Of a DNA stretch of 64,000 bases, positions 3,630 to 22,810 are shown piece after piece. The position numbers and the translations under genes are program-made. The stretch is taken from assembly GCF_000566685.1 (NCBI RefSeq), contig NZ_AZQN01000005.1, forward strand, positions 62,001 to 126,000, read 5' to 3'. Below the pieces are notes generated by a model, which saw only the letters and a program-made list of their open reading frames with translations, did not search any database and was not told the DNA's origin. This DNA is from Dyadobacter tibetensis Y620-1 (GTDB lineage: Bacteria > Bacteroidota > Bacteroidia > Cytophagales > Spirosomataceae). Position 1 is the first letter of the stretch; each line of letters starts with the position of its first letter.

Positions 3630-4784
3630 CTAAACGGAAGCGAAGGCTTTGCTCAGCGCTACCAAGTCGGCGTCGTTGACTTCCTTCTTGATATCTGCTA
3701 CTTCAAGGAATCGCGAATATAGTTCATCTACGGCCGCCTTTTCATAGGAGAAGCCCAATAGTTCGAGGCGGTGCTTCAGGGCGTGTCGTCCGCTCCGGGC
3801 CGTAAGTACTATGTCCGACTTATCAACACCAACATCCTGAGGGTTCATAATCTCGTAATTCAGGTTGTGCTTCAAGAATCCATCCTGGTGTATTCCTGAT
3901 GAATGCGCAAAGGCGTTCCGCCCCACAATGGCCTTATTAGCCTGGATAGGCATACGCATCATTTTGGAGACCAGCTGGCTAGTGGGATATATTTCTTTGG
4001 TATTGATAGCCGTTTCCAGGCCCATTTCGGGGTGCACCTTCAATGCCATCACCACTTCTTCTAAAGAAGTATTTCCTGCCCGCTCTCCAATCCCATTCAA
4101 AGTCACCTCTACCTGTCGTGCACCCTGGCTAATCCCCGCTAAAGAGTTGGCTGTAGCCAGTCCAAGGTCGTTATGGCAATGTATGGATATAATGGCCTTG
4201 TGAATATTGCTTACATTTTCGAAGATATACTTGATTTTTCCACCGTATTCCTCTGGAAGACAATAGCCTGTAGTGTCCGGGATGTTCACCACAGTCGCAC
4301 CGGCTCCAATGACAGCCTCCACCAGCTGGGCAAGGAATGCAAGGTCGGCACGGCCCGCATCTTCACAGTAAAACTCTACATCTTCAACCTTGCTTTTTGC
4401 ATACTTGGTTGCGGCAATAGCCCGTTCGATTATCTTTTCACGGGTGGTGTTGAATTTGTGCTGTATATGAATGTCGGAAGAACCAATTCCGGTATGGATA
4501 CGGCCTCTTTTTGCATATTGTAGGGCATCGGCTGCAGCGTCGATATCCCCAGTAACGGCCCTGGACAGTGCGCATATTATAGGTTCTCTTACCGCTTTGG
4601 AAATTTCTACCACTGAACGAAAATCACCAGGGCTTGAAACCGGAAAGCCGGCTTCGATCACGTCAACACCCAGCTTTTCGAGTTGCCTGGCTACAATGAC
4701 TTTTTCATCGGTGGTTAACTGGCTGCCGGGCACCTGCTCGCCATCTCTTAAGGTGGTATCGAAGATTTGAACTCTCTGACTCAT
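3630..4784 (-). CDS. leuA: 2-isopropylmalate synthase, short form lacking the regulatory domain
   Basis: LeuA condenses 2-oxoisovalerate with acetyl-CoA, the committed step to leucine. The 384-residue protein begins with the DRE-TIM motif [13 protein letters not shown] and has the metal-site phrase [15 protein letters not shown] and GIGERAGN. It ends about where the catalytic part and linker end, so the C-terminal leucine-binding (LeuA dimer) domain of E. coli LeuA, which is about 520 residues, is absent. Lack of leucine feedback is therefore likely (inference). It is separated from leuB by a 275-bp spacer with its own promoter, leader peptide and terminator, so leucine control seems to act at transcription. 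A longer paralogue with the regulatory domain lies at 6180-7697. Confidence 0.92.
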
Positions 4785-4843
4785 TGCTGGGTATGGTGAA
4801 TATGTAATGGTATAACTAATTTACTAAATTTCTAGGGCAATAT

Positions 4844-4875
4844 AAAACCCTTTCTGTAATAAGAGAAAGGGTTTT
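4844..4875 (-). terminator. leuA attenuator terminator hairpin (3:4)
   Basis: In the minus direction AAAACCCTTTCT pairs perfectly over 12 bp with AGAAAGGGTTTT around an 8-nt loop, followed by TTTTATATT. It lies between the leader peptide and leuA. An upstream segment, GAGGAAGG (positions 4902-4895), can pair with the 5' arm (CCTTTCTC, 4870-4863) over 8 bp with one G-U, giving the antiterminator. Confidence 0.85.
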
Positions 4876-4906
4876 AGGACGAATCATAACGGCACCTTCC
4901 TCTGGA

Positions 4907-4957
4907 TTAACCCAGATTGAGCAGAAGGTAATATGGTTGTGAATCGGCGTATTTCAT
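4907..4957 (-). CDS. leu leader peptide, 16 aa (MKYADSQPYYLLLNLG)
   Basis: This is a 17-codon reading frame with four Leu codons in its last six residues (CTT CTG CTC, then CTG). Leucine shortage would stall the ribosome on the LLL run. The Leu-codon region contains ACCTTC (4929-4924), which pairs with GAAGGT (4899-4894). That is the same segment needed for the antiterminator, so a stalled ribosome would release it. The terminator lies 31 nt after the stop codon. The leader peptide fits all requirements of classical amino-acid attenuation, but translation has not been shown. Confidence 0.8.
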   Translation of the reverse strand: MKYADSQPYYLLLNLG

Positions 4958-4971
4958 TACTAAAGTCGTTT

Positions 4972-4983
4972 GCGAAATTTCGC
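4972..4983. promoter_or_regulatory. perfect palindrome GCGAAATTTCGC upstream of leu leader
   Basis: This 12-bp perfect palindrome lies 14 nt before the leader ATG and 19 nt after the CTTTG of the proposed -7 box. The same palindrome with the same 19-nt spacing occurs upstream of ilvD. The symmetric form with an AAATTT centre resembles sites of Lrp/AsnC-type regulators, but the binding protein is unknown. Its place within the predicted transcript also allows an RNA hairpin, GCGA/TCGC with an AATT loop. Confidence 0.6.
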
Positions 4984-5002
4984 TGTATGCGATTTTCTTC
5001 TG

Positions 5003-6179: not shown

Positions 6180-7697
6180 TTAAATGATATTTAACATTTT
6201 CTGAGTGGCCTTAATGGCCGATACGGTCTGATCTGAATCCAGTCCGCGGGTTTTGGTCTCTTTGCCTTTGATGCTCCAAGTAATAATAGTTTCGCAGAGG
6301 GCATCAGTCTTTCCTCCTGGTGGGATGCGTACGGCATAGTCCACGAGCATGGGTAGTTCAATTCCTTTCTTACAATAAACCTTTTTAAGGGCATTCATAA
6401 AGGCATCATACTGTCCGTCGCCCTGAGCGATCTCCTGAAAGAGTTCATCTCCAAAGCTGATTTGTACCGTAGCCGAGGGTTTTAGGTTTTTAGAGTGGGT
6501 GAGCACATAATTCTGAACCACCACTTTTTCTTCTATGGCACTGCTGTCCAGGACATCGGAAATGATATAGGGTAGGTCTTCTGGAGTCACCACCTCTTTC
6601 TTGTCTCCGAGCTCGATGATGCGCTGGGTGACTTTCTTTAGGTCGCTGTCGGTGAGTGTGATACCCAGGTCTTTCAGGTTGTTTTCGATATTGGCCTTTC
6701 CAGAAGTTTTCCCTAGGGCATATAAGCGCGTACGTCCAAAGCGCTCGGGCATAAGCTTGCTGAAATAGAGATTGTTTTTCTTATCTCCATCGGCATGTAT
6801 GCCCGCTGTCTGAGTAAATACACTCTCGCCTGTAATGGGCTTGTTAGAAGGTATACGAATCCCCGAAAAGTTCTCGATCAGCTTGCTGATGGAATACAGG
6901 GATTTTTCTACTACCGAGGTTTCTATTTCGGGCATAAAGTCCTTGATCACAGCAATCGCACTCGCTAGGGGGGCGTTGCCCGCTCTTTCGCCCATGCCGT
7001 TCACCGTGAGGTGCAGGCCTTGCACCCCTGCTCTGATGGCCTCCATAGTATTGGCCGTGCCCAGATCGTAATCGTTATGCGCATGAAACTCAAAATGAGT
7101 ACCTGGATAACGATCGACGACGGCTTTCGTATATTCGTAAGCCTCTTTTGGGGTGAGTATTCCCAGGGTGTCCGGAAGCAATATCCGCTTTACCGGCTGG
7201 GTGGTCAGGAAGTCCAAAGCGGCGAATACATACTCAGGGGAGCTGCGCATGCCGTTGCTCCAGTCTTCCAGATACACGTTGCAGGTGATATCGTTGGACT
7301 GTGCCAAGGCGATCACGCCTGTGATATCGGCGAAATGCTCCTCAGGAGACTTTTTGAGTTGATACTTCAGGTGATTTAGCGAGCCTTTGGTCAACAGGTT
7401 CATTACCTTGGCGCCAGTGCCCAGCATCCACTCGATAGACTGCCGGCCATCTACAAAGGTAAGCACTTCTATTTTGTCCAGGAAACCGTGGTCCTTGGCC
7501 CAGTCTGTGATTTTTTTTACCGCCTGAAACTCTCCTTCAGAAACCCGGGCCGAAGCCACTTCTATGCGATCGACTTTCACTTCCTGTAGTAGAAGCTGGG
7601 CGATCGTCAGTTTTTCGGATGCGGAAAACGATACTGCGCTGGTTTGTTCCCCATCGCGCAGGGTCGTATCCATAATTTCTATATAGCGTCTATTCAT
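6180..7697 (-). CDS. second isopropylmalate/citramalate synthase-like enzyme with regulatory domain
   Basis: A DRE-TIM acyltransferase starts with [22 protein letters not shown] and carries FEFHAHNDYDLGTANT and GMGERAGNAPLA. The last ~120 residues (from LKPSATVQISFGDELF) form a LeuA allosteric dimer domain, which leuA here lacks. It could be a leucine-inhibited isopropylmalate synthase, an (R)-citramalate synthase for isoleucine, or a regulatory paralogue; the sequence does not decide. I choose the start at MNRRYIEIMDTT (505 residues), because the upstream Met at 7712 lies inside a repeat block. It is encoded between leuD and leuB. Confidence 0.8.
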   Translation of the reverse strand: MNRRYIEIMDTTLRDGEQTSAVSFSASEKLTIAQLLLQEVKVDRIEVASARVSEGEFQAVKKITDWAKDHGFLDKIEVLTFVDGRQSIEWMLGTGAKVMNLLTKGSLNHLKYQLKKSPEEHFADITGVIALAQSNDITCNVYLEDWSNGMRSSPEYVFAALDFLTTQPVKRILLPDTLGILTPKEAYEYTKAVVDRYPGTHFEFHAHNDYDLGTANTMEAIRAGVQGLHLTVNGMGERAGNAPLASAIAVIKDFMPEIETSVVEKSLYSISKLIENFSGIRIPSNKPITGESVFTQTAGIHADGDKKNNLYFSKLMPERFGRTRLYALGKTSGKANIENNLKDLGITLTDSDLKKVTQRIIELGDKKEVVTPEDLPYIISDVLDSSAIEEKVVVQNYVLTHSKNLKPSATVQISFGDELFQEIAQGDGQYDAFMNALKKVYCKKGIELPMLVDYAVRIPPGGKTDALCETIITWSIKGKETKTRGLDSDQTVSAIKATQKMLNII

Positions 7698-7702
7698 GAG
7701 GA

Positions 7703-7773
7703 TGCCGGCCATCGGCCGAAGGCTATCGGCCAGCGGTAAGGTACCGACAGCCGACAGCCGAATGCCGATAGCC
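7703..7773. repeat. GGCTATCGGC-type repeat cluster R1
   Basis: Variants of a 10-mer of the form GGCnnTCGGC fill the leuD to synthase spacer: GGCCATCGGC, GGCTATCGGC (7721-7730) and, inverted, GCCGACAGCC, GCCGAATGCC and GCCGATAGCC (7764-7773). The two outer copies of GGCTATCGGC/GCCGATAGCC can form a 10-bp stem. Related clusters lie on both sides of the four-helix-bundle gene at 8380-8420 and 8857-8886. Confidence 0.75.
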
Positions 7774-8420: not shown

Positions 8421-8780
8421 TTAGTCTACAGCGTTTAATTTTTTAATTAATTGATATAACTGTTTTTTAATGGATACAATTTCTGCTTGAATGCTGTCGT
8501 AAATTTCTGTTGACATGTAACCCAAGTCTTTCGCTAGATACGTGAGATATTCTACCTCCTGGCATGACCCGTAAGATATTCCTAAATATCGAGCAAAATC
8601 CTTTTCGCTTATTTTTGCGCAGCCTTCGCTAATGTTAGTCGGAATCGAAATAACAGCTCTTCTTAATTGAGATATTAATCCAAATCTTTCCTCACTAGGA
8701 AACTCTTTAGTGATGTTATAGAGACTCAGAACGAGCTGATGACTCTGTTCCCATACATGATAGTTCCTAAAATTTCTCAT
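8421..8780 (-). CDS. four-helix bundle protein (23S rRNA-intervening-sequence protein family)
   Basis: The 119-residue protein matches the TIGR02436 family: FRNYHVWEQSHQLVLSLYNI, FGLISQLRRAVISIPTNISEG (the most conserved part) and a final helix ending QLYQLIKKLN. Members fold as four-helix bundles, form pentamers, occur in intervening sequences of spirochaete 23S rRNA genes, and are related to the Avd protein of diversity-generating retroelements. No rRNA or reverse transcriptase is nearby. The gene is clearly richer in A+T than leuC and leuD and is flanked on both sides by GGCTATCGGC-type repeats, suggesting a small mobile cassette inserted in the leucine operon (inference). Function unknown. 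Confidence 0.85.
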   Translation of the reverse strand: MRNFRNYHVWEQSHQLVLSLYNITKEFPSEERFGLISQLRRAVISIPTNISEGCAKISEKDFARYLGISYGSCQEVEYLTYLAKDLGYMSTEIYDSIQAEIVSIKKQLYQLIKKLNAVD

Positions 8781-15181: not shown

Positions 15182-16027
15182 TCACCTCCTCTTCGGCGTT
15201 CTGCCAAATTTTTCTTTATAGGTCTTTATAAAATGGGAGACGCTTTCGTAGCCTATTTCGGCTCCTATTTCCGATACATTTTTTGGGCTGTTACGGAGCA
15301 GGAAATCGGCGTAGTCGAGGCGTTTGTTTTTGAGCCATAGGGCCGGGGAGGTGCTGAACTCTTCCTGAAAGTCGCGCTTGAATACCGACAGGCTACGGCC
15401 CGAAAGCTTGGCGAGCTCCGCCAGGGTAAGGGGCTTGAGGTAATAGCTGTTCATCAGAAACGACAAGTCTACCTTTTCCCCCTTATGTAGTCCGTATAGG
15501 ATGGAGCGCAACTGTCGGGAGGGCTCCAGCTCCAGCAGGTGCAGGAGTAGTTCCTGAAATTTGAGCCTCAAAAAATGATTCTTAAGCTCCTCTCTGGAGT
15601 GGAAGTAGGGGAAGATAGACTGGATGAATTTCTCAAAATTGTCGTCCGACTGCAGTAGCAGAATAGGATACTGACTGTGTGCCTGTTCGTTTTCGGCGCT
15701 GAAGAGCTCGGGATGCAGGCTGACAAACTCTTTCAATAATTTTTCGTCAAAAAAAAATACTAGACTTTTATAGGCCTCGTTGATCGACTCCGACATGAGG
15801 TAGAAGCCCCGCTGGACGAAGAGGATATCCCCCTTTTGTACATGTACTTCCTGGGTTGGGCTGGTAAATTTTTTCTCCCCTTCCAACACCACTATAACCG
15901 CATGTTCCTCGAAAAACACATCGTATTTGGAGGGGTAAATTTCGTTGCGATAGGCCACAAAGGTCATGTCCTGAATCTTGAGAGATTCAAATTCCTGGGC
16001 GCTGATATCGGAGGGGACGCGGAGCAT
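15182..16027 (-). CDS. AraC-family transcriptional regulator
   Basis: The 281-residue protein has an N-terminal cupin-like sensing domain (VVLEGEKKFTSPTQEVHVQKGDILFV) and a C-terminal double helix-turn-helix: LTLAELAKLSGRSLSVFKRDFQEEF and NVSEIGAEIGYESVSHFIKTYKEKFGRTP. It begins 9 bp after ilvA in the same direction, so it is probably cotranscribed at the end of the ilv operon. The ligand is unknown; a role in branched-chain amino acid control is possible from position only. Confidence 0.9.
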   Translation of the reverse strand: MLRVPSDISAQEFESLKIQDMTFVAYRNEIYPSKYDVFFEEHAVIVVLEGEKKFTSPTQEVHVQKGDILFVQRGFYLMSESINEAYKSLVFFFDEKLLKEFVSLHPELFSAENEQAHSQYPILLLQSDDNFEKFIQSIFPYFHSREELKNHFLRLKFQELLLHLLELEPSRQLRSILYGLHKGEKVDLSFLMNSYYLKPLTLAELAKLSGRSLSVFKRDFQEEFSTSPALWLKNKRLDYADFLLRNSPKNVSEIGAEIGYESVSHFIKTYKEKFGRTPKRR

Positions 16028-16036
16028 GCAGGCAAT

Positions 16037-17290
16037 TTACACTAAAAACTGAAACAAATCGGGTTGGTCATTTAGGTATTCATATACGATTTTGGCTTCG
16101 TCCATACGTGCGAGCAGGGGTTGGAAATCTTCCCGGTTTTTTAGTTCTATTCCTACCAGGGCGGGGCCTTGTTCTCTGCTGGTTTTCTTGACATATTCGA
16201 AGCGGGCCACGTCGTCGTTGGGACCCAGCACGTTGAGAAATTCCCGGAAGGCGCCAGAGCGCTGGGGGAACCGGATGATGAAATAGTGCTTCAGTCCCTC
16301 GAAAAGCATGGAGCGCTCTTTGATCTCCTCGGTACGGGTGATGTCGTTATTCCCTCCGCTGATGAGCAATACCACATTCTTGCCTTTTATTTCTTCTCTG
16401 ATCTGGTCCAGGGCCGCCACGGTGAGGGCTCCTGCTGGTTCGGCCACAATGGCCTCTTCGTTATAGAGCTGCAGGATCGAAGAGCATACCCGGCCTTCAG
16501 GAATCAGTATGATCTTTTCAAGGCTTTTGCTGCATACCTGGAAAGTGATGTCGCCAGCACGGCGCACGGCGGCTCCGTCTACAAACTTATCGATATGCTC
16601 CAGGGTTACCACTTGTCCGGCGGCTAGGGAGTCGTGCATGGTGGGGGAGCCTAGTGGTTCCACGCCTATGAGTTTGGTCTGAGGGGAGAGCTGCTTAAAT
16701 ACAGTAGAAATGCCTGAGGCCAGCCCGCCACCGCCTATGGCCATCAGCAGATAGTCGATGTTAAAATCGGCATCTTTAAAAATTTCCAGTCCGACGGTCC
16801 CCTGGCCCTCTATGACCTGCAGGTCGTCGAAGGGGTGAACGAAGACGGCGTTCGTGGCTTCGCGGTAGTCCATTGAGGCATGGTAAGCATCGTCGTAGGT
16901 ATCACCCACCAGGTGGATTTCTATCCATTCTTTTCCAAACAAGCGTACCTGTTTCACCTTTTGGGCCGGGGTGGTGGTAGGCATGAAAATGGCTCCTTTT
17001 ACCTGCATTTTCTGGCAGGCATAGGCGACGCCCTGGGCGTGGTTGCCGGCGCTGGCGCATACCACTCCTTCTGCCAGCTGCTGCATGCTCAAACTAGCCA
17101 TTTTGTTATAGGCTCCGCGTATTTTGTAGGAGCGAACGGTTTGCAAATCCTCCCTTTTCAGGTAGACATTGGCTTGATATTGCTCGGAAAGATGCTGGTT
17201 GTGCAGCAGTGGGGTATGGTTGATCACTCCCCGAAGTCGCTCGGCGGCCTTAAAGATATGGTCCAGGGATGGGCTGTTATTGGTTTTCAT
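16037..17290 (-). CDS. ilvA: threonine ammonia-lyase (threonine dehydratase), biosynthetic
   Basis: IlvA deaminates threonine to 2-oxobutanoate, the first step to isoleucine. The PLP lysine is in VRSYKIRGAYN (K56 from the chosen ATG), the phosphate loop is AIGGGGLASG and SGGNNDIT lies near the end of the fold. The last ~90 residues (FEGLKHYFIIRFPQRSGAFREFL) form one ACT-like allosteric domain. The start ATG at 17290 is preferred over an in-frame TTG twelve bases upstream. A terminator-like hairpin ends about 11 nt before the start. Confidence 0.94.
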   Translation of the reverse strand: MKTNNSPSLDHIFKAAERLRGVINHTPLLHNQHLSEQYQANVYLKREDLQTVRSYKIRGAYNKMASLSMQQLAEGVVCASAGNHAQGVAYACQKMQVKGAIFMPTTTPAQKVKQVRLFGKEWIEIHLVGDTYDDAYHASMDYREATNAVFVHPFDDLQVIEGQGTVGLEIFKDADFNIDYLLMAIGGGGLASGISTVFKQLSPQTKLIGVEPLGSPTMHDSLAAGQVVTLEHIDKFVDGAAVRRAGDITFQVCSKSLEKIILIPEGRVCSSILQLYNEEAIVAEPAGALTVAALDQIREEIKGKNVVLLISGGNNDITRTEEIKERSMLFEGLKHYFIIRFPQRSGAFREFLNVLGPNDDVARFEYVKKTSREQGPALVGIELKNREDFQPLLARMDEAKIVYEYLNDQPDLFQFLV

Positions 17291-17305
17291 GGTATGAAGC
17301 AAAAA

Positions 17306-17384: not shown

Positions 17385-18431
17385 TTAGTTATTCTCAGGA
17401 CGTAGGCTACGTACTGTTTTACCAGCTCTCCACATTTCAGACTCGCGAAGTTCGGCCAGCTCCTCTTCCAGCTTCACTCGGTAGTCAGGCTGAGAGTTGC
17501 GGGTAATCGAAATTTTGGCTTCGTTACCAGTCTTCACAGAATTGTAAAGTTGTTCGAAAACAGGCTTGGTAGCGTCACGGAAAGGCTTCCACCAGTCCAG
17601 GGCACCACGCTGAGCGGTAGTAGAACAGTTGGCATACATCCAGTCCATTCCGTTTTCGGCTACTAGAGGCATCAACGATTGAGTCAATTCTTCAACTGTC
17701 TCGTTAAATGCTTCCGATGGCGAGTGACCATTCGTGCGCAATACTTCATATTGAGCTGCGAAGATTCCCTGGATGGCACCCATCAAAGTACCACGCTCAC
17801 CTGTAAGGTCAGAAGTTACTTCGCGGTAGAAATCGGTTTCGAAAAGGTAACCAGAACCTACGCCGATACCCATGGCGATACATTTTTCGCGGGCTTTGCC
17901 AGTAGCATCCTGGAAGATAGCGAAAGAAGAGTTCAATCCTTTGCCCTCTACGAACAGACGACGAAGAGATGTTCCTGATCCTTTGGGAGCTACCAAGAAT
18001 ACATCTACGTCTGCTGGAGGAACGATACCTGTTTGATCTTTGTAGGTAGCGCCGAATCCATGCGAGAAGTAAAGGGCTTTTCCTGGAGTAAGGTGTTTCT
18101 TAACGGTAGGCCACAATTCAATTTGTGCTGCGTCAGAAAGAAGGTAGCAAATGATGCTTCCTTTAGAAAGAGCTTCTTCGATTTCGAAAAGAGTTTCACC
18201 AGGAACGAAACCGTCTGCTACTGCTTTGTCCCATGACTTACCGCCTTTACGCTGGCCAACAATTACGTTAAAACCGTTATCACGCATGTTTAGGCTTTGG
18301 CCTGGGCCCTGTACACCATATCCGATTACGGCGATGGTTTCAGTAGAAAGAATTTCACGCGCTTTCTCTAATGGGAACTCTTCACGGGTTACTACTTCTT
18401 CTTCGACCCCGCCGAAATTTAATTTTGCCAT
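17385..18431 (-). CDS. ilvC: ketol-acid reductoisomerase
   Basis: IlvC isomerises and reduces acetolactate or acetohydroxybutyrate with NAD(P)H and Mg2+. The Rossmann motif is IGYGVQGPGQSLNMRDNG, a variant of the classical GYGSQGHAQ form, followed by VGQRKGGKSW. Metal-ligand regions are SDLTGERGTLMGA and a later EELTQSLMPLV. The 348 residues fit the short (class I) form. It sits 63 bp after ilvN in the operon. Confidence 0.95.
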   Translation of the reverse strand: MAKLNFGGVEEEVVTREEFPLEKAREILSTETIAVIGYGVQGPGQSLNMRDNGFNVIVGQRKGGKSWDKAVADGFVPGETLFEIEEALSKGSIICYLLSDAAQIELWPTVKKHLTPGKALYFSHGFGATYKDQTGIVPPADVDVFLVAPKGSGTSLRRLFVEGKGLNSSFAIFQDATGKAREKCIAMGIGVGSGYLFETDFYREVTSDLTGERGTLMGAIQGIFAAQYEVLRTNGHSPSEAFNETVEELTQSLMPLVAENGMDWMYANCSTTAQRGALDWWKPFRDATKPVFEQLYNSVKTGNEAKISITRNSQPDYRVKLEEELAELRESEMWRAGKTVRSLRPENN

Positions 18432-18494: not shown

Positions 18495-19028
18495 CTACTG
18501 AATATATTCCCAGTTGGCCTCTGGCAGGTAGTCTACCAGTGTTTGGGGCGATTTGCTGACTGCCACCCTTCCCGAGCGTACAAACTCCAGGATGCCATGG
18601 GGCTTGATATAATCGAAAAATTCGAAAATTTCCTCTTCGGAGCCTGTTTTTTGAATAATGACATAGTTCAAATGCCAGTATACCACCCACGCTTTATGGA
18701 CTTTGTTGATGGTTTCGATATCGATGGGTTTGGCATCGATAGGGGTTGGGATTTTAAACAGGGCAATTTCATTGAAAGCGATGTCCTCGTTCAGGTACCC
18801 AAACACGGCCAGAACCTCGATGACTTTGCGTATCTGGCGAACCAGCTTCTCCACCGCTTCCCGGGAATCGTGGTGAATCACTATGGTAAAACGTGATATT
18901 CCTTTACGCTCGGTTTCCGATACGGTTAGGCTTTCTATATTGATGCGTCTACGGGTGAGAATGGTGGTGATTTTATTCAAAATCCCAAAGGTATTCTCAG
19001 TAAATACACATATGGTGTAGGTAGTCAT
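18495..19028 (-). CDS. ilvN: acetolactate synthase small (regulatory) subunit
   Basis: The 177-residue protein starts with an ACT domain, YTICVFTENTFGILNKITTIL, and IESLTVSETERKGISRFTIV, which binds valine in known homologues and tunes the large subunit. A C-terminal extension (EEIFEFFDYIKPHGILEFVRSGRVAVSK) is typical for IlvH/IlvN. It lies 61 bp after ilvB. The symbol ilvN or ilvH is a naming choice. Confidence 0.94.
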   Translation of the reverse strand: MTTYTICVFTENTFGILNKITTILTRRRINIESLTVSETERKGISRFTIVIHHDSREAVEKLVRQIRKVIEVLAVFGYLNEDIAFNEIALFKIPTPIDAKPIDIETINKVHKAWVVYWHLNYVIIQKTGSEEEIFEFFDYIKPHGILEFVRSGRVAVSKSPQTLVDYLPEANWEYIQ

Positions 19029-19089: not shown

Positions 19090-20850
19090 CTATTCCAGTC
19101 TGATTTCCGAAACGCTGGCACCGGTAGGCACCATAGGAAATACATTTTCTTCTTTTTCCACCAATACTTCCAGCAGATAAGGCTTATCTGACGCAATCAT
19201 GGTATCGATTGAGGCCTGCAGGTCTTCGCGGTTTGCACAAGTATGTCCGTCGATACCAAAACCTTTAGCGATGGTGATAAAATCGGGGTTCTGCAGCTCT
19301 ACAAAGGAATAACGCTTTTCAAAGAACAGCTGCTGCCACTGCCTTACCATCCCCAGATAATTGTTGTTGAGGATAATAATTTTCACCGGAAGCCCACTTT
19401 GCGCAATGGTGCCAAGCTCTTGGAGCGTCATCTGAAAACATCCGTCGCCAATAATGGCCACAACCTCACGGTCGGGCGCACCCACTTTAGCGCCAAAGGC
19501 GGCTGGAAGTGCGTAGCCCATGGTGCCTAGCCCTCCGGAAGTAATAAATGAGTTGGCTTTTTTGAATTGGTAGTACCTGGCCGTCATCATCTGGTGCTGG
19601 CCTACATCGGCCACCATAATCGCCTCGCCATTGGTTTTATCGGAGAGTTTGCGAATTACCTCAGCCATTTTTATTTTTTCAGTGTCACCCGAAAGTTCTG
19701 GCGTGGTAATCTTCTCAAACTCCTCTTGTTCATATTTCTTAAACTCCGAGCGCCATTCCGAATGATCATTTTTATTCACCAAGGGAAGGAGCTGTTGCAA
19801 AACAATTTTTGCATCCCCAACTACTGGTGCCTCCGTCTTCATGATTTTGTTGATTTCGGCGGGATCAATCTCAATATGGACCACTTTAGCCTGTCGGGCA
19901 TACCGGCTCAGGTCGCCGGTTACCCGGTCGTCGAAACGCATGCCTACGGCAATGATGACGTCACACTGATTGGTAAGCACATTGGTGCCATAGTTGCCAT
20001 GCATTCCTAGCCAGCCTACATAATTAGGATGATCTACTGATACCGAAGACAAACCTAATAGGGTCGATGCCGCTGGTACATCTGTTTTCTCGATAAATTG
20101 CAGTAACTCTTCTTCTGCTTTGGCGATATTCACACCGTGACCAAAGAATAGGAATGGCTTTTTGGCCTCGTTAATGAGCTTTGCCGCGACCTGAATCTGA
20201 TCCGCTTTTGGGGCTAGCCGAGGGTGGTAGCTCAACAGTTTTTCACATTTCTTATAATTGAATGGCTTGCTCAGGAGCTCGTTCTGTGCATTTTTGGTAA
20301 TGTCGATCAACACAGGTCCTGGACGTCCGGACTTGGCAATATAAAATGCCTTGGCCATGATTTCAGGTATCTCGTCGGCGCGGGTTATCTGGTAGTTCCA
20401 TTTGGTGATCGGGATAGTGATACCAATGATATCGGTTTCCTGAAAAGCATCGGTACCCAGCAAGCTGGCGGCTACCTGACCTACAATACAAACCATAGGC
20501 GTGGAATCGATGATGGCATCGGCAATTCCAGTTACTAAGTTGGTCGCGCCTGGACCCGATGTTGCCAAACAAACCCCAACTTTTCCGGTAGTTCGGGCGA
20601 AGCCTTCAGCCGCATGGGAAGCGCCCTGTTCGTGGCGTACCAATATATGGTTCACTCGGTCTTGGTAGTCATATATGGCGTCATAGACGGGCATAATGGC
20701 ACCACCAGGATATCCAAATATGGTTTCTACTCCCTCGTGAATCAGCGCCTGGATCACGGCATGTGAGCCATTGATTAATTCGGGGGTGGTGGACGCTACG
20801 GCTTGTGGGTCCATTTCGGCTACGGCTGTTTGTTTTTCATTAAATTCCAT
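19090..20850 (-). CDS. ilvB: acetolactate synthase large (catalytic) subunit
   Basis: This ThDP- and FAD-dependent enzyme condenses two pyruvates, or pyruvate and 2-oxobutanoate. Visible motifs are the catalytic Glu in RHEQGASHAAEGFART, ATSGPGATNLVTGIADA, and the ThDP-Mg motif GDGCFQMTLQEL ... ILNNNYLGMVRQWQ. It has 586 residues, standard for the family. It begins 52 bp after ilvD, in the operon with ilvN and ilvC. Confidence 0.96.
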   Translation of the reverse strand: MEFNEKQTAVAEMDPQAVASTTPELINGSHAVIQALIHEGVETIFGYPGGAIMPVYDAIYDYQDRVNHILVRHEQGASHAAEGFARTTGKVGVCLATSGPGATNLVTGIADAIIDSTPMVCIVGQVAASLLGTDAFQETDIIGITIPITKWNYQITRADEIPEIMAKAFYIAKSGRPGPVLIDITKNAQNELLSKPFNYKKCEKLLSYHPRLAPKADQIQVAAKLINEAKKPFLFFGHGVNIAKAEEELLQFIEKTDVPAASTLLGLSSVSVDHPNYVGWLGMHGNYGTNVLTNQCDVIIAVGMRFDDRVTGDLSRYARQAKVVHIEIDPAEINKIMKTEAPVVGDAKIVLQQLLPLVNKNDHSEWRSEFKKYEQEEFEKITTPELSGDTEKIKMAEVIRKLSDKTNGEAIMVADVGQHQMMTARYYQFKKANSFITSGGLGTMGYALPAAFGAKVGAPDREVVAIIGDGCFQMTLQELGTIAQSGLPVKIIILNNNYLGMVRQWQQLFFEKRYSFVELQNPDFITIAKGFGIDGHTCANREDLQASIDTMIASDKPYLLEVLVEKEENVFPMVPTGASVSEIRLE

Positions 20851-20902: not shown

Positions 20903-22591
20903 CTATGCCTCGTCAGTTACACAGCCTTCGCTGGCCGACTTGACGGTGCGTATATAACGCCCTAGCATCCCTTTGGTGAATTTGGGCTCGGGCTGAACCC
21001 AAGCGGCCTTTCTTTGGGCTAATTCTTCGTCGGACACATGGAGCTTTAATTCCCGGGTGTCTGCGTCGATGGTGATAAGGTCTCCGTCTTTTACCAGGGC
21101 AATGGGGCCACCATCGAATGCTTCGGGGCAGATATGTCCTACCACAAAGCCATGGGTACCTCCCGAGAATCGGCCGTCGGTAATTAAAGCGATCTTATCG
21201 CCCAGGCCTGCGCCCATAACGGCGGAAGTAGGCTTAAGCATTTCCGACATGCCTGGGCCCCCTTTTGGCCCGGCATTCCGAATTACGACTACCTGCCCTT
21301 CTTTAATCTCTCCTTTGGCCAGGGCGTCGATAATCTCCGATTCGTGCTCGCAAATCTTCGCTATTCCTTCGAAGCGCATGCCCTCTTTACCAGTGATTTT
21401 GGCCACCGAGCCTTCTGGAGCCAGATTGCCGTAAAGGACCTGAATATGTCCCGAAGGCTTGATCGCCTTCTCTATAGGGAATACAATTTTTTGAGCTTCG
21501 AAATCCAGGGAAGGAACATCAGCCAGGTTTTCTGCCACAGTCTTTCCTGTTACGGTAATACAGTCGCCATGAATTAACCCCTTTCCGAATAGATACTTCA
21601 TCACGGCTGGTACGCCTCCTATTTCCAGCATATCTTCCATGTAATATTTGCCGCTAGGTTTCAAGTCGGCAATAAATGGGACGCGATCTGAAATGGTCTG
21701 GATGTCGTCTAAGGTAAGCGGAATTCCCGCAGCACGGGCGATAGCCAGGTAGTGCAGGGTAGCGTTTGTAGAGCCGCCCAGGGCCATGACCACTGTCAAG
21801 GCATTTTCTAAGGATTTACGGGTAATGATCTCCTTAGGGGTAATATTAAGTTCCAGAAGTTTTTTCATGGCATGGCCAATCTTGCGGCACTCCTCTTTCT
21901 TGCCCTCGTGGGTGGCAGGGTAGCTGCTTCCAAAAGGAAGGCTTAGGCCCATGGCTTCAATAGAAGAGGCCATGGTGTTGGCAGTATACATCCCGCCGCA
22001 GGCCCCCTGCCCGGGGATAGAGTTCTGAATTACTCCTTTAAAGTCTTCGTCGGAGATATTATTGGCAAATTTTTGGCCTAAAGCTTCAAATGCCGATACG
22101 ATATCTAGTTTTTTCCCTTTATAATGTCCGGAACGAATGGTTCCACCATATACCATAATGGCGGGACGGCCGATACGCGCCATGGCCATAATGGCGCCAG
22201 GCATGTTTTTGTCGCAGCCTACCACGGCGATTACGCCATCGTACCACTGAGCAGAAACTACGGTTTCGATCGAGTCGGCAATGATGTCGCGGCTGGGTAG
22301 GGAGAAACGCATCCCATCGTTACCATTGGTCATCCCATCGGATACGCCTATGGTGTTAAATATTAGCCCTATCATATCATTATCGGCCTGAACCCCCTGC
22401 TTGACATACACGGAAAGTCCATTTAGATGCATGTTACAGGGGTTGCCCTCATAGCCTGTGCTGGCGATGCCGATCTGGGGCTTGGCAAAATCTTCTTCCT
22501 TTAGACCAATGCCGTATAGCATGGCCTGTGCTGCTGGATTGGTGACTTCCTGTGTAAGGGTCTTTGAAAACTTATTTAATTCGTTCGCCAT
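20903..22591 (-). CDS. ilvD: dihydroxy-acid dehydratase
   Basis: IlvD dehydrates the dihydroxy acids to the 2-oxo acids of valine and isoleucine. Three conserved cysteines for the Fe-S cluster are seen: C52 (GNPCNMH), C126 ([10 protein letters not shown]) and C198 ([13 protein letters not shown]). [19 protein letters not shown] near the C-terminus carries the active-site Ser. The length of 562 is standard. It is the first gene of the ilv operon and is preceded by the attenuator and palindrome-promoter region. Confidence 0.96.
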
Positions 22592-22618
22592 GGTTTATGA
22601 ATAGGATAAAAATAAAAA

Positions 22619-22646
22619 CACCTCAGTCGCCGTGGTGAGTGAGGTG
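22619..22646 (-). terminator. ilvD attenuator terminator hairpin
   Basis: In the minus direction CACCTCA, a 14-nt loop and TGAGGTG form a 7-bp stem followed by TTTTTATTTTT. It lies between the leader peptide and ilvD. GTGAGTG (22676-22670) can pair with CACTCAC (22641-22635), which spans the 5' arm and loop, as antiterminator. Confidence 0.82.
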
Positions 22647-22672
22647 CAGGTATATGATATAAGCCTTCCCAC

Positions 22673-22723
22673 TCACGCTTGTGGCGTGACTACGAGTAGT
22701 AGGTGTGGGATAATGATCTGCAT
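22673..22723 (-). CDS. ilv leader peptide, 16 aa (MQIIIPHLLLVVTPQA)
   Basis: A 17-codon frame has eight regulatory codons: Ile x3, Leu x3 and Val x2 in MQIIIPHLLLVV, exactly the three products of the pathway. Downstream TCACGC pairs with GCGTGA around CACAA, and TCCCAC with GTGGGA outside it. Both pairings sequester the GTGAGTG segment needed for the antiterminator, so stalling at the Ile, Leu or Val codons should favour readthrough. This is a textbook attenuator architecture; translation is not proven. Confidence 0.85.
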   Translation of the reverse strand: MQIIIPHLLLVVTPQA

Positions 22724-22745: not shown

Positions 22746-22761
22746 TAGCGAAATTTCGCTA
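22746..22761. promoter_or_regulatory. 16-bp perfect palindrome TAGCGAAATTTCGCTA upstream of ilv leader
   Basis: The core GCGAAATTTCGC (22748-22759) is identical to the one upstream of the leu leader and sits at the same distance, 19 nt, from the CTTTG of the proposed -7 box. Here the symmetry extends to 16 bp. It is a candidate operator for a dimeric regulator of both units, or a 5' RNA element. Confidence 0.65.
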
Positions 22762-22778: not shown

Positions 22779-22810
22779 CAAAGTAGGGAGGTAACTTTTT
22801 ATTTTCCAAA
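22779..22810 (-). promoter_or_regulatory. putative ilvD promoter
   Basis: On the minus strand TTTG (22810-22807), 20 nt, then CTACTTTG (22786-22779) resembles the Bacteroidota promoter. The CTTTG-to-palindrome distance equals that at leuA. The transcript would include the palindrome, the leader peptide and the attenuator. Confidence 0.55.

Follow-up and report, generated by a model that had tools for sequence, protein, structure and literature searches.

The attenuators of the enterobacterial ilvGMEDA, ilvBN and leu operons are built from a leader open reading frame (ORF) with runs of regulatory codons, overlapping 1:2, 2:3 and 3:4 helices and an intrinsic terminator before the first structural gene, and in ilv the sensing is multivalent. 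In Firmicutes, ilv and leu operons are under the control of T-boxes.

A 2010 paper stated that no leader peptides were known beyond Proteobacteria and Actinobacteria, except for a new case in Firmicutes (PMC2965389). For Bacteroidota, the main text of a study on Flavobacterium psychrophilum provides strong clues that attenuation by leader peptides takes place ahead of amino acid operons (PMC9723704). A further relevant system is RamB of Paracoccus denitrificans, a regulator of the ScfR family that has CoA esters as ligands and acts from the region between ramB and ms to control malate synthase (PMC10370305).

The window analysed here (the whole stretch of 64,000 nucleotides) carries an ilvDBNCA operon that is very probably controlled by a ribosome-mediated attenuator of the trp/ilv/leu class, together with a palindrome that probably serves a RamB-like regulator as operator, as judged from comparative sequence analysis and folding models. 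The preliminary description of the locus had proposed an Ile-Leu-Val attenuator before ilvD that provides a multivalent signal, and conservation, in-frame codon content, helices and folding with a ribosome mask all agree with this, so that a multivalent ribosome-mediated attenuator is well supported as the best reading of the leader. A search of the open-access literature turned up neither this attenuator nor a branched-chain regulon of a RamB-like protein.

The ilvDBNCA leader and its helices

The operon lies on the minus strand, and NCBIfam models confirm the gene order that had been given for it, namely ilvD (dihydroxy-acid dehydratase, 20903-22591), ilvB (acetolactate synthase large subunit, 19090-20850), ilvN (acetolactate synthase small subunit, 18495-19028), ilvC (ketol-acid reductoisomerase, 17385-18431) and ilvA (threonine ammonia-lyase, 16037-17302). 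The gene of an AraC-type regulator (15182-16027, minus strand) begins 9 nt past ilvA and is possibly part of the same operon. Upstream of ilvD, a -33-like box TTTG (22807-22810) and a conserved -7-like box TACTTTG (22779-22785; TAATTTG in most relatives), both on the minus strand, suggest a Bacteroidota-type promoter, and the pattern TTTGGAAAATAAAAAG...TANTTTG is conserved across the genus. A sigma-70 promoter scan was uninformative at the locus, as expected for Bacteroidota.

The element as a whole also lies on the minus strand, which had previously been left unstated. Its leader ORF, MQIIIPHLLLVVTPQA (22673-22723), is read as 51 nt with the ATG at 22723 and the TGA at 22675-22673, and it does code for all three branched-chain amino acids in runs, as had been claimed. 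Taken alone this ORF is weak evidence, because the window contains 280 ATG ORFs with lengths of 13-18 codons, and 5 of these (~2%) have an Ile/Leu/Val content as high. It is conservation, rather than the ORF by itself, that argues strongly for an element as opposed to chance. The genus sample consisted of the window genome and G001-G024 (25 genomes), in 23 of which the element stands before ilvD, and 29 distinct ilv leaders were aligned as the base of the codon, covariation and folding tests. Close relatives were checked for a loss of the codon runs for Ile, Leu and Val, which was not seen: all three amino acids are present in every one of the 29 leaders (one of which, L024, has just four such codons), and they make up 52.5% of the codons in frame vs 13.1% and 9.6% in the two other frames. 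The peptide sequence varies between leaders and the Ile/Leu/Val content is preserved. There are two stop positions, either a TAG shortly upstream of GCGTGAGTG or a TGA within it, and the alignment contains compensating indels that preserve stop position and frame. The locus therefore has the short ORF with runs of pathway amino acid codons that is typical of attenuators, with its translation being predicted. In relatives, ilv leaders are 48-54 nt long (66 or 72 nt when counted from the first in-frame ATG) and the leaders of leuA are mostly 48-54 nt. The identical 51-nt length of both, to which the preliminary description drew attention, is correct for the window genome and is not a conserved feature; since both lengths vary among relatives, the equality looks incidental.

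The pairings proposed for the RNA downstream can all be located on the minus strand. The 1:2 (pause) hairpin (22667-22710) has an outer helix of TCCCAC (22710-22705) with GTGGGA (22672-22667) and an inner helix of TCACGC (22689-22684) with GCGTGA (22678-22673). Strand 2, the 5' arm of the antiterminator (GTGAGTGGG, 22668-22676), overlaps the leader stop codon, and its GTGAGTG (22676-22670) pairs with CACTCAC (22641-22635) in strand 3 (CACCTCACTCAC, 22635-22646), which is common to antiterminator and terminator. The T-rich terminator is formed by CACCTCACTC (22646-22637) and GACTGAGGTG (22628-22619), with one C-C mismatch in the window copy, and a T-run at 22618-22606, so that strand 4 and its tail occupy 22606-22628, stem and T-run together 22646-22606, and a predicted intrinsic terminator precedes the first gene of the cognate operon (ilvD starts at 22591). 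A simple terminator scan did not call it because of the mismatch and the loop length. The folding energy of the 131-nt leader is -36.4 kcal/mol, compared with a mean of -23.1 for shuffled sequences (z -4.05), none of 200 shuffles being as stable.

Covariation analysis, a check that had been suggested for this locus across Cytophagales, gives a different picture for different helices. In the 1:2 hairpin the inner helix is paired in 100% of cells over the 29 leaders, and in the outer helix both sides have changed, for example AU/GU/GC at one pair and UA/AU/GC at another. There are 17 cells with both sides changed vs 9.1 in shuffles, and the covariation of 0.227 (0.177 in shuffles) was reached by none of 500 shuffles, all of which also fell below the hairpin in cells paired; this signal is strong, though not proof, as kinship of the sequences can produce it. 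The antiterminator and terminator, on the other hand, are paired in 99.6% and 97.2% of cells respectively, vs 34-57% with the partners slid, and are near-invariant within the genus. Such invariance is expected, because strand 3 must pair with two partners, and this tight constraint means that covariation of these two helices comes mainly from comparison between genera. The sequences are different in Arundinibacter, Rhabdobacter, Telluribacter, an Emticicia-like MAG, Arcicella and more distant Bacteroidota, and, as read off with no statistics and one Arcicella case apart, antiterminator and terminator are still complementary (e.g. the antiterminators GUGUGAG/CUCACAC and GUAUGAG/CUCAUAC), with the first antiterminator arm starting at or near the leader stop across these genera. 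The three mutually exclusive helices (1:2, 2:3 and 3:4) are thus all present, and each of them is conserved or covarying.

Ribosome position, rival readings and loss of the attenuator

The effect of ribosome position was computed by folding the leaders up to strand 3 while keeping ribosome-covered bases unpaired, which represents the equilibrium fold of a truncated RNA and not its kinetics. In the window copy, an A site at Ile3-5 gives a predicted antiterminator probability of 0.74-0.83; the value is 0.84-0.99 for Leu8-10 and 0.99 for Val11-12, and it drops to 0.00 when the ribosome is at the last codons or the stop, or is absent. Over the 29 leaders the mean at the stop is 0.00-0.02 for footprint edges of 10-14 nt and the mean without a ribosome is 0.45, so basal termination without translation would not be uniform among leaders. 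In this computation, then, the stall position decides between antiterminator and terminator. When the entire leader is folded at equilibrium the antiterminator wins at some stall sites only, and the attenuator model therefore needs co-transcriptional order.

The proposed course of events is as follows. With an ample supply of charged tRNA for each of Ile, Leu and Val, the ribosome would reach the stop and cover strand 2, and the 3:4 terminator would form. A shortage of any one of them would make the ribosome stall in a codon run and block the 1:2 hairpin, whereupon strand 2 could pair with strand 3 and RNA polymerase would read through. In the case of no translation at all, the 1:2 hairpin would form and transcription would end. 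The palindrome between promoter and leader, as a putative operator of a RamB-like regulator common to ilvD and leuA, would add control of initiation.

A second leader of this type precedes leuA (2-isopropylmalate synthase, 3630-4784, minus strand; NCBIfam NF002086, above cut-off). It consists of the Leu-rich, 51-nt leader ORF MKYADSQPYYLLLNLG (4907-4957), an antiterminator partner AGAGGAAGG directly past the leader stop and a terminator AAAACCCTTTCTCTTATTACAGAAAGGGTTTTATATT (4838-4875), all on the minus strand, and in computation it behaves like the ilv leader. The stretch 4838-4984 (minus strand) has the same layout of promoter, palindrome, leader and terminator as the ilv locus, and this layout is found in the genus. 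A search revealed no leader upstream of leuC or between leuC and leuD. A short ORF between the latter two (~8423-8780, minus strand) resembles, by eye, a four-helix-bundle protein. A LeuA-like protein (6180-7712, minus strand) scores best against the citramalate synthase CimA of Leptospira, below the cut-off; a CimA-like gene near an operon that contains ilvA would make for two possible routes to 2-oxobutanoate.

Two other readings of the element have to be weighed against attenuation. The hairpin with its T-run could be a plain terminator or a processing hairpin, and the Ile/Leu/Val-rich ORF a product of chance, as the ~2% of short window ATG ORFs with matching content would allow. Yet that content is held in frame only and in 29 of 29 leaders, stop position and frame survive by compensating indels, the overlap of strand 2 with the stop is preserved across genera and the leu operon is headed by a Leu-rich leader arranged in this way, all of which makes this reading very improbable. 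It is more improbable still that the region is not a translated leader but a riboswitch (a T-box or other) that binds a ligand or a tRNA. The T-box control of ilv and leu operons in Firmicutes gives this idea some appeal, but what is conserved here is a reading frame, and the Rfam covariance models, for T-boxes as for other cis-regulatory families, gave no match at gathering scores and only implausible ones at relaxed scores.

The ribosome-mediated attenuator, as the preferred reading, has also been gained or lost repeatedly, with at least 5 changes of state on an ilvD tree of 46 rows. Two lineages in separate clades of Dyadobacter have, by sequence comparison, independently lost it: the ilvD loci L003 (genome G009, matching a D. 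luticola record, L098) and L025 (genome G014, strain CY323, L118) retain promoter and palindrome, and the leader-terminator block is gone. Both genomes retain a leuA attenuator (L079, L077). There is no attenuator before ilvD in Spirosoma, Rudanella, Fibrella, Fibrivirga, Lacihabitans and Jiulongibacter. Ile/Val-rich leaders with matching terminators were seen before ilvD at L150, L157, L168, L169, L170 and L171, which are records from Flavobacteriaceae, other distant Bacteroidota and Ignavibacteriae.

A palindrome before ilvD and leuA and its candidate regulator

The preliminary description missed a conserved palindrome, AGCGAAATTTCGCT (22747-22760), which lies between promoter and leader and is shared with leuA, where the second copy (AGCGAAATTTCGCA on the minus strand, 4971-4984) precedes the leader. 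These two are the only sites with at most one mismatch in the 5.3 Mb genome. The form common to both is AGCGAAATTTCGC(T/A), and the pair recurs throughout the genus. All 25 ilv sites have the palindrome 18 nt past the -7-like TTTG; among the leu sites there are 21 counts of this spacing, a few alternative choices of TTTG give 17 or 21, and the window leuA copy is 18 nt from its own TTTG box. The spacing is 18 in Spirosoma and 21 in relatives from Emticicia, Arcicella and Lacihabitans. The arms are near-invariant and only the two centre bases vary, among A and T. Moreover, the palindrome is retained without an attenuator in Spirosoma, Fibrella, Lacihabitans and the two Dyadobacter losses. Fixed spacing, invariant arms and such retention point to a DNA operator, probably common to ilvD and leuA. 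Pairs of palindromes 241-242 nt apart occur at L228, L250 and L270, where they lie before ilvD, and at sites in G215 and G221, and two sites 120-121 nt apart precede malate synthase in G058, G087, G113 and G154; looping or paired operators are possible in these cases.

A search of 194 genomes of the order gave 124 occurrences of the pattern AGCGAANNTTCGCT vs 33 of a reversed control pattern. Outside the family the sites precede genes for malate synthase, pckA, citrate synthase and an XRE protein with an IrrE-like domain, and tblastn with ilv and leu proteins found no matches around the order-wide sites (a positive control worked). The XRE/IrrE protein, of which the G032 homologue displays the helix-turn-helix and the IrrE N-terminal-like domain of ScfR/RamB-like regulators, matches the RamB equivalog model NF038139 with an E-value of 7e-14 and 51.3 bits, far under the NCBIfam cut-off of 700, and is therefore named RamB-like only. 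The window genome has one copy (G000:C4:146041-147456), with 46% identity to the G032 homologue over residues 3-477 of 478. Site and regulator occur together in 63 genomes, the regulator alone in 7, the site alone in 13 and neither in 111, an association with a Fisher p of 1.1e-29, or 9e-11 when stratified by family (CMH), although these values overstate certainty because the genomes are not independent. The reversed control showed no association with the regulator in the same 194 genomes, and the association within families would be hard to explain by shared descent alone. At the family level, 30 loci were chosen by tool (20 more, hand-picked partly for ilvD-leuA-like spacing, are left out of the proportions): 10 are before ilvD, 4 before leuA, 2 before pckA and 9 elsewhere, and 5 are beside a RamB-like gene, of which 2 are common to malate synthase and 2 to pckA. 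In several families, Spirosomataceae among them, a site lies directly before the regulator gene itself. The Dyadobacter RamB-like gene has no palindrome in front, and autoregulation is thus not conserved in that genus.

That the palindrome is an RNA hairpin of the attenuator rather than a DNA operator is quite improbable. It does lie downstream of the putative promoter, could form a 5-bp hairpin and is called terminator-like on the plus strand by a simple scan; its arms, however, show near-invariance in place of covariation, it persists where the attenuator is absent, it recurs between divergent genes unconnected with attenuation, and it co-occurs with a DNA-binding protein. A more serious alternative, if still a rather unlikely one, is that it is the operator of some other regulator, with the RamB-like gene a correlated passenger. 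The Dyadobacter gene without a site in front and the 13 genomes in which the site is present and the regulator was not detected would fit this, but the association holds within families and is not shown by the reversed control, and the sites directly before regulator genes in several families also speak for the RamB-like protein. A link between operator and RamB-like regulator is thus preferred by a modest balance of probability: in Spirosomataceae an ScfR-type regulator may bind AGCGAANNTTCGCT before ilvD and leuA and set initiation according to carbon or acyl-CoA status, while the attenuators would set read-through according to charged tRNA, and lineages that lost the attenuator would keep the first layer only.

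Comparison with known systems

The ilv attenuator, as far as comparative sequence evidence goes, is real and of an ordinary kind. It shares with enterobacterial ilvGMEDA, ilvBN and leu the codon-run leader, the overlapping helices, the terminator and, by prediction, the multivalent sensing, this likeness being one of architecture, with no relation in sequence expected. The Dyadobacter leader peptide is shorter (15-17 aa as a rule), a Bacteroidota-type promoter and the palindrome lie upstream, and the gene order is D-B-N-C-A. Attenuation of branched-chain amino acid genes by leader peptides outside Proteobacteria is likewise described for ilvBNC of Corynebacterium glutamicum and for other actinobacterial leaders (PMC11857589, PMC1262725), in another phylum and with hairpins that are not homologous as far as tested. 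Within the same phylum, amino acid biosynthesis operons of Flavobacterium psychrophilum are preceded by short peptides and structured 5' regions, which the main text of that study treats in general terms only, without reference to this operon, to a covariation test or to a codon test (PMC9723704). For Bacteroidota, on which the open-access literature gives general hints only, the present locus offers an attenuator of branched-chain amino acid synthesis that is well supported and resolved to the sequence, and the two natural deletion lineages provide a comparison for it.

The proposed link between operator and regulator appears to be new and is the less expected part of the two. The RamB-like protein has the same XRE helix-turn-helix and IrrE-like domain as RamB/ScfR of P. 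denitrificans (PMC10370305) and C. glutamicum (PMC4448153), and in related Cytophagales families its gene and the malate synthase gene diverge from a region that contains the motif, in the manner of ramB/ms of P. denitrificans. The Cytophagales site is a single palindrome and differs from the published RamB motif and from a pair of boxes spaced by 18 bp, and in Spirosomataceae the putative targets include ilvD and leuA, which makes motif and regulator a testable pair that may connect branched-chain amino acid synthesis with the control of central carbon metabolism.
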